A stretch of 51,000 bases of DNA from Actinomycetota bacterium (GTDB taxonomy: Bacteria > Actinomycetota > Nitriliruptoria > Nitriliruptorales > Nitriliruptoraceae): assembly GCA_017852335.1 (NCBI GenBank), contig JAFMLG010000002.1:38849-89848 (forward strand), read 5' to 3'. Below the pieces are notes generated by a model. It had not been told where the DNA came from, made no database searches, and saw only the letters and a list, made by a program, of their open reading frames with translations. Both the position numbers and the translations under genes were made by a program. Shown piece by piece: positions 46,029 through 47,330 of this stretch; within the stretch, counting starts at the first letter, position 1, and each line of letters begins with the position of its first letter.

Positions 46029-47330
46029 ATGCCCGACGCACCGCGCCGCCTGCCGACCCCGCCACCGCCGGCCACGGAGGGTCCCGACCCGACGGTCACG
46101 GCCTGGGTGGCCGCGCACCTCGGGGACCTCTGCGACGGCGGCCCCGCCGCCGTCGCCGCCTCGCCCCGGTTCCGGGGCGGGCAGCGCGCGGCCGACGCCG
46201 CCCTCGCCGCCCTCGACCTCCGCGGGTACGCGTCGGACCGCAACGAGGTCTGGCCGGCCGCGCGCCGCGGTGCGACCGGGCTCTCGCCCTGGATCCGGCA
46301 CGGGCTGCTGCCGCTGCCGCGGGTCTGGGCCGCGGCCGCCGACGCCCCGGCACGCGACCGCGAGAAGTTCCGCGACGAGCTCCTGTGGCAGGAGTACGCC
46401 CGGCACGTGCAGGCCCGCCTCGGGCCGCGGCTGCGCGACGGCCTGCGCCACGAGCTCCTCCCCGGCCTGCCCCCGGGGGCGGACCCGTGGCACGAGGACC
46501 GCGCCGCCGGCATGGCCTGTCTCGACCTCGTCCTCGGCGAGCTCAACGAGGACGGCTGGCTGCCGAACCAGGCCCGCATGTGGATCGCGTCCCACTGGGC
46601 CGTCCGCGCCGGCGCGGCCTGGCGGGAGGGCGAGGACGCGCTGTTCCGGCGCCTGCTCGACGGCTCGCGCGCGGCGAACCGGCTCGGCTGGCAGTGGACG
46701 GTGGGGACGGGGACCGGTCGCCCCTACGGCTTCTCACGGTGGCAGGTCGAGAAGCGGGCACCGGGACTGTGCGGCACCTGCGACCTCGCCGCGTCCTGCC
46801 CGATCGAGGACTGGCCCGAGGATCCGCCGCTCAGCGCGGTCCCGCCCGACCCGCGCCTCCGCGACGACCCCGACCCGGGCGCGACCGCCGGGCCCGCGGG
46901 CGTCGAGCGTCACGGCGACGACGACCCCACCACCGTCTGGCTGACGGCCGAGTCCCTGGGTGACGACGACCCGGCGCTCGCGGCGCACCCGGACCTCCCC
47001 GTCGTGTTCGTGTTCGACGCCCCGCTGCTGGCACGGCTCCGCCTGGACGGACGTCGACTGGTGTTCCTGGCCGAGGCGCTCGGCGACCTCGCGACCCGCC
47101 GCGAGGTCGAGGTCTGGCGCGGCGACGTCGTGGCGACGCTGGCCGCGGACGGCGCGGCCGGCGGCCGGTCGCTCGCCGTCACGCACGCGCCGGTCCCGGG
47201 GTTCCGGCGCCGGGCGGCCGCGGTGCCGGTCGCGGTCCGGCACCCGTGGCCGTGGCTGCGACGTCCGGCCGGCGGGCGCATCGGATCGTTCAGCGCCTGG
47301 CGGGGCGGGCGGGACGGCCGGCGGCGCTGA
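46029..47330 (+). CDS. Photolyase/cryptochrome-like protein with permuted domain order
   Basis: This 433-residue protein has the FAD-binding domain first (about 80-265): GATGLSPWIRHGLLPLPRVW, REKFRDELLWQEYARHV, LNEDGWLPNQARMWIASHW and NRLGWQWTVGTGTGRPYGFS. A photolyase-like alpha/beta domain comes last (about 300-425): TVWLTAESLGDDDPALAAHP, LPVVFVFDAPLLARL, RRLVFLAEALGDL and VEVWRGD. Classic photolyases have the reverse order. Cys164 (GMAC) and the cluster Cys248-x2-Cys251-x5-Cys257 resemble the four ligands of the [4Fe-4S] cluster in FeS-type bacterial photolyases. Activity may be DNA repair or light sensing. ATG 46029 is preceded by GGGGAG. Divergent from the SRPBCC gene. Confidence 0.82.
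   Translation: MPDAPRRLPTPPPPATEGPDPTVTAWVAAHLGDLCDGGPAAVAASPRFRGGQRAADAALAALDLRGYASDRNEVWPAARRGATGLSPWIRHGLLPLPRVWAAAADAPARDREKFRDELLWQEYARHVQARLGPRLRDGLRHELLPGLPPGADPWHEDRAAGMACLDLVLGELNEDGWLPNQARMWIASHWAVRAGAAWREGEDALFRRLLDGSRAANRLGWQWTVGTGTGRPYGFSRWQVEKRAPGLCGTCDLAASCPIEDWPEDPPLSAVPPDPRLRDDPDPGATAGPAGVERHGDDDPTTVWLTAESLGDDDPALAAHPDLPVVFVFDAPLLARLRLDGRRLVFLAEALGDLATRREVEVWRGDVVATLAADGAAGGRSLAVTHAPVPGFRRRAAAVPVAVRHPWPWLRRPAGGRIGSFSAWRGGRDGRRR

Follow-up and report, generated by a model that had tools for sequence, protein, structure and literature searches.

Our analysis assigned the gene at positions 46029 to 47330 on the plus strand of the window, i.e. of the whole stretch of 51,000 nucleotides that was analysed, to a published kind of photolyase with reversed domain order, which is named NewPHL, SPL or Phr4-6 in the literature, and within this kind to the branch with four Fe-S cysteines. 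Sequence and structure model point, with a probability of about 85%, to a reversed-order photolyase of the Fe-S-cysteine branch of NewPHL/SPL/Phr4/5/6 that splits CPDs by light. The domain order, both folds and the conservation of the cysteines and of the active site can be read from sequence and model. The preliminary description had proposed a distinct subfamily. This part is not supported because reverse-order photolyases have been published since 2020 (NewPHL, SPL, Phr4/5/6), and the same kind is described by Haney et al. 2022 (PMC9426592) and in PMC13274461.

The reading frame is a genuine and well conserved gene. Start and end were as previously described, with an ATG at 46029, 433 codons and a stop codon ending at 47330. 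GC contents of the three codon positions were 0.82/0.61/0.95, the third position being high, and homologues with 60-72% identity coincide with the window protein in both start and end. The genome carrying the window is actinobacterial and 1.7 Mb in size, and a homologue is present in a genome of the same genus (G002). The following features were located:

46029..47330, plus strand: reverse-order photolyase gene of the SPL/NewPHL type (433 aa), from the ATG start through the stop codon
46016..46020, plus strand: likely ribosome-binding site GGAGG, 8 bases 5' of the ATG in the sequence
46161..46823, plus strand: FAD-binding catalytic half, about residues 45-265, from Pfam, PDB sequence search, model and profile comparison
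46518..46520, plus strand: Cys164 of the MAC segment, candidate Fe-S ligand, invariant in 66/66
46770..46772, plus strand: Cys248, candidate Fe-S ligand, invariant in 66/66
46779..46781, plus strand: Cys251, candidate Fe-S ligand, invariant in 66/66
46797..46799, plus strand: Cys257, candidate Fe-S ligand, invariant in 66/66
46824..46916, plus strand: linker joining both halves (residues 266-296), with low sequence conservation
46917..47303, plus strand: C-terminal alpha/beta domain (photolyase antenna-type), residues 297-425, from model, profile, Foldseek and permutation

From the sequence we infer that the window protein binds FAD and a cluster and that it acts on CPDs in a light-dependent way. 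The N-terminal half would bind FAD. A CPD would be flipped into the active site of this half, as the conserved residues suggest, and would be split via electron transfer from the light-excited reduced FAD. The four cysteines most likely hold a [4Fe-4S] cluster of chiefly structural importance, and the C-terminal alpha/beta domain stands in for the usual N-terminal antenna domain.

FAD_binding_7, in the FAD half (residues 115-230, E 1e-12), was the only Pfam match of the protein, and a PDB sequence search matched class I photolyases over residues 51-233. The alignment to E. coli photolyase obtained with phmmer paired E117 with E274, W120 with W277, N180 with N341, M184 with M345, W198 with W359, N217 with N378, W221 with W382, and W223 with W384. 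All eight residues are invariant in the family with the exception of M184, which is conserved in at least 90%. Kept as in class I members are the CPD-contacting and flavin residues E274, W277, N341, M345, N378, and W384 (E. coli numbering). In the tryptophan triad W382-W359-W306 the first two are present as W221 and W198, and W306 found no counterpart in the alignment to the window protein. According to established knowledge on class I enzymes, the kept active-site residues fit CPD repair by reduced flavin. Light-driven CPD repair is the most likely function suggested by the conserved residues. A light sensor of the cryptochrome kind that does not repair DNA would agree with the observation that most loci lack a conserved operon with DNA-repair genes, and the class I and FeS-BCP photolyases of these genomes could handle repair. 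However, every CPD-photolyase substrate-contact residue tested is invariant or nearly so, no output domain is fused, and no conserved regulator adjoins the gene, so that a mere sensor appears very improbable.

Based on the model as well as on profile and permutation tests, residues 297-425 are a photolyase alpha/beta domain placed C-terminally. They are very well conserved among homologues: their mean column identity was 71% (alignment A3) compared with 52% for the whole protein (alignment A2). The AlphaFold2 model of the whole protein had a pLDDT of 93.9 and a pTM of 0.93, and in a Foldseek search with this model photolyases aligned with the FAD half only (about 220 columns, TM about 0.4). 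Folded alone with AlphaFold, the C-terminal domain reached a pLDDT of 86.7 and displayed the strand-helix order of the photolyase alpha/beta domain. The PDB matches ranked 1-14 in a Foldseek search with the C-terminal part alone were all photolyases or cryptochromes, among them 1owl (probability 1.00, TMq 0.63, E 3e-3). The C-terminal profile matched class I photolyases with a probability of 94% (E 1.3e-7), aligning domain-profile residues 6-113 with class I residues 3-134. The observed score was 52; the 60 controls with shuffled columns reached 25 at most, and the profile in reverse order reached 14. The alpha/beta domain of the preliminary description, for which a different fold had been named as counter-evidence, thus proved real in both Foldseek and profile comparisons.

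Furthermore, residues 297-433 were moved to the front in silico and the rearranged protein was scored against the class I photolyase profile. With the permutation undone in this way, the score of 158 with 194 aligned columns became 204 with 346 columns, in a single collinear alignment over residues 2-378. Scores were lower when the breakpoint fell inside one of the two domains. Cutting at 240 also yielded 204, as expected from its position between the matched regions. Pfam, PDB, profile and permutation evidence agree with the earlier claim that the FAD domain precedes the alpha/beta domain. This is an inverted topology, and the class I order is absent. The wording that it is the reverse of all classic photolyases is correct as far as classic ones are concerned; as a general statement it fails, since reverse-order photolyases were already published.

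The weak match to Pfam DNA_photolyase, found in just 2 of 66 homologues, was counted against the main reading. It might be supposed that in a FAD-only short photolyase an unrelated alpha/beta domain follows and mimics the photolyase fold, as the relation is invisible to single-sequence searches (Pfam and NCBIfam searches returned nothing usable for the C-terminal domain) and a PDB sequence search with the alpha/beta profile returned no photolyase. This explanation is already disfavoured by the profile match and the permutation test, for which shuffled and reversed profiles served as controls, by the structural match of the C-terminal part, and by more distant proteins from Deinococcus, and we consider it hardly credible. 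The Deinococcus C-terminal domains match Pfam DNA_photolyase with E-values of 1e-3 to 2e-4. In profile comparisons they match the window's C-terminal domain (99%, E 1e-18) as well as class I photolyases (96%, E 2.5e-9), and form a useful bridge from the Pfam family to the window's domain.

The reversed-order CPD photolyase would also contain an Fe-S cluster. As stated in the preliminary description, the cysteine spacing is C-x83-C-x2-C-x5-C, and C164, C248, C251 and C257 are invariant in all 66 aligned homologues. In a profile alignment with FeS-BCP photolyases from related genomes the four cysteines pair with the cluster cysteines of that family, MAC with MAC and C-x2-C...CP with C-x2-C...CP, which bears out both the likeness to FeS-type ligands and the similarity of the MAC segment. 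The Deinococcus relatives retain the four cysteines, and the alphaproteobacterial relatives lack them. Most likely, the cysteines hold a [4Fe-4S] cluster whose role is mainly structural.

Apart from the cysteines at equivalent places, including MAC, the window protein differs from the FeS-BCP (PhrB/CryB) prokaryotic (6-4) photolyases, which have the classic order, a DPRP-type (PF04244) N-terminal domain, a larger C-x12-C loop and an only distantly similar FAD half. PF04244, the N-terminal domain of FeS-BCP, had no match in the window protein, and the C-terminal alpha/beta domain did not match the FeS-BCP profile. The FAD half obtained a far better score with the class I profile (99.4%) than with that of FeS-BCP (67%), and the alpha/beta domain matches class I. 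An identity as a permuted PhrB, as implied by the term permuted FeS photolyase, is thus excluded. Class I CPD photolyases are nearest to both halves and share the active-site residues. They differ from the window protein in domain order, and the window protein has the Fe-S cysteines and lacks the third tryptophan.

SPL of Rhodococcus fascians, an actinobacterial protein, was reportedly found by Xu et al. 2021 to contain FAD and an Fe-S cluster and to repair CPDs. NewPHL of Dinoroseobacter and Methylobacterium (Emmerich et al. 2020) is reported to have the reverse order and to repair CPDs. A homologue of the window protein with 61% identity is encoded in Rhodococcoides kroppenstedtii (L095), a relative of R. 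fascians. SPL resembles the window protein in its N-terminal FAD half, the four cysteines and a class I-like active site, and is reported to lack an alpha/beta domain, whereas the window protein and the Rhodococcoides homologue have one C-terminally. PMC9649867 describes SPL as devoid of the alpha/beta domain and cites it as an Fe-S CPD photolyase. PMC13274461 equates 'NewPHLs or SPLs' and attributes to them 'an inverted domain topology'. NewPHL and the Prochlorococcus Phr7 share with the window protein the N-terminal FAD domain, a C-terminal domain and CPD repair, but Phr7 lacks the cysteines and its C-terminal 'Z-domain' is short and diverged. For Phr7/NewPHL, Haney et al. refer to Emmerich et al. 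2020 (PMC9426592). The apparent NewPHL relatives on alphaproteobacterial plasmids are likewise without cysteines, and their C-terminal domains lack a profile match to class I.

Reverse-order photolyases of picocyanobacteria, namely marine Synechococcus and Cyanobium, occur in split (Phr4/Phr5) or fused (Phr6) form (Haney et al. 2022, PMC9426592). The cysteines of Phr4/Phr6 (C169, C254, C257, C263) are spaced C-x84-C-x2-C-x5-C (PMC9426592), which equals the spacing in the window protein within one residue; reverse order and the existence of split and fused forms are also shared. Judged from their published description, Phr4/5/6 differ in being cyanobacterial and predicted (6-4) enzymes. A phr4 mutant was sensitive to UV-C, and an expressed reverse-order Fe-S photolyase shielded E. 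coli from UV-C in a manner that was not light dependent (PMC9426592). This light-independent protection, the (6-4) prediction of Haney et al. for Phr4/Phr5, and the absent W306 counterpart speak against the main reading. The same architecture might serve repair of (6-4) photoproducts, which Haney et al. proposed from the cysteines. Prokaryotic (6-4) photolyases typically have Fe-S cysteines, and the published prediction is accompanied by the UV-C phenotype for Phr4/5 (PMC9426592). Nevertheless, we regard this as unlikely, since the FAD half resembles class I CPD photolyases much more than FeS-BCP, the CPD-contacting residues are retained, and FeS-BCP, the usual (6-4) enzyme, is also encoded in 9 of the 11 genomes of our phylum sample that carry the gene.

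The window protein connects three names in the literature, SPL, NewPHL and Phr4/5/6. In our literature search, which extended to sources other than the text of the primary SPL paper, no published mention of the C-terminal domain in the actinobacterial lineage was found. Our study adds the actinobacterial fused form, fused and split forms in Deinococcus, and the finding that the gene is strongly associated with FeS-BCP genes. The 'short' photolyases of actinobacteria lack no domain; the alpha/beta domain has moved to the opposite end. This bears on the proposal that SPLs, supposedly without alpha/beta domain, are ancestral to the entire photolyase family. Moreover, the natural fused and split forms make it testable whether both halves function as separate polypeptides.

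The family is widespread in Actinomycetota, and plasmids of Deinococcus and alphaproteobacteria encode more distant proteins in the same reversed order. Of 61 related genomes, 20 carry the protein (19 in full, 1 truncated where the contig ends), and a further genome has a fragment at the edge of a contig. Scanning GTDB genomes identified 410 relatives. The best 80 of these were mostly from Actinomycetota and all had the C-terminal domain; as they were ranked by whole-length match, which favours complete forms, they cannot show the frequency of FAD-only forms. Of 150 evenly sampled Actinomycetota genomes, 11 contained the gene. No relative of the window protein was found in a scan of viral contigs, and in phage records only the FAD half was matched.

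On the plasmid of Deinococcus sp. QL22 (L129:1351-2642) two genes with a 4-base overlap follow each other in the order of the fused protein, encoding a FAD protein of 257 aa and an alpha/beta protein of 173 aa (Pfam DNA_photolyase E 2e-4). The alphaproteobacterial C-terminal domains had no profile match to class I and a weak one to the Deinococcus domains. In a FAD-domain tree the actinobacterial forms were placed beside class I (97/93) and away from the Deinococcus and alphaproteobacterial forms, a placement to be distrusted because of the very long FeS-BCP branch. A single clade of reverse-order forms was not rejected in the AU test (p 0.10) on this tree, which is without published NewPHL/Phr4-6 sequences. 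Similarity of the C-terminal domains suggests that at least the actinobacterial and Deinococcus forms share an origin.

FeS-BCP genes were found in 19 of 21 related genomes with the reverse-order gene and in 6 of the 40 that lack it (Fisher p 9e-9), and in the phylum sample in 9 of 11 compared with 11 of 139 (p 1e-7), p-values that are too small since related genomes are not independent. Outside the window's class the numbers were 2 of 4 and 9 of 139 (p 0.03), an approximate comparison because the comparator row retains own-class genomes without the gene. The co-occurrence pattern also varies within genera. The window's genome (G000) has three photolyases, of class I (C45), reverse-order (C76) and FeS-BCP (C78) type. 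In five loci (L018, L020, L049, L078, L098) the FeS-BCP gene lies within 5 kb; assuming a genome of 2.5 Mb, the chance probability is about 4e-5. It is tempting to speculate, though we consider it rather doubtful, that Fe-S reverse-order and Fe-S (6-4) photolyases form a co-inherited pair matched to CPD and (6-4) lesions, sometimes encoded by neighbouring genes, that the reversed order arose by fusion of a FAD gene followed by an alpha/beta gene as in Deinococcus QL22, and that SPLs may not be domain-less ancestors.

Among about 100 loci no neighbourhood was conserved across the family, except for FeS-BCP (5) and a divergent gene (6). The latter, encoding a product of about 200 aa, precedes the photolyase gene in the window, where it lies on the minus strand upstream of 46029, and in L056; relatives occupy the same place in 6 loci. 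Its product appeared polyketide-cyclase/START-like by eye and had no Pfam match. In L078 (JANQFK010000046.1), a MAG titled Myxococcota, an actinobacterial-type reverse-order photolyase gene adjoins a FeS-BCP gene, which represents either gene transfer or a binning error. Five MAGs titled Bifidobacterium breve (L054, L059, L060, L082, L089) encode relatives, several of which appear nearest to aquatic actinobacterial ones, and these titles look wrong. The alphaproteobacterial reverse-order photolyase genes L121, L127 and L128 are located beside DUF3429 genes, and in two of the three also beside genes for NAD(P)-binding proteins.
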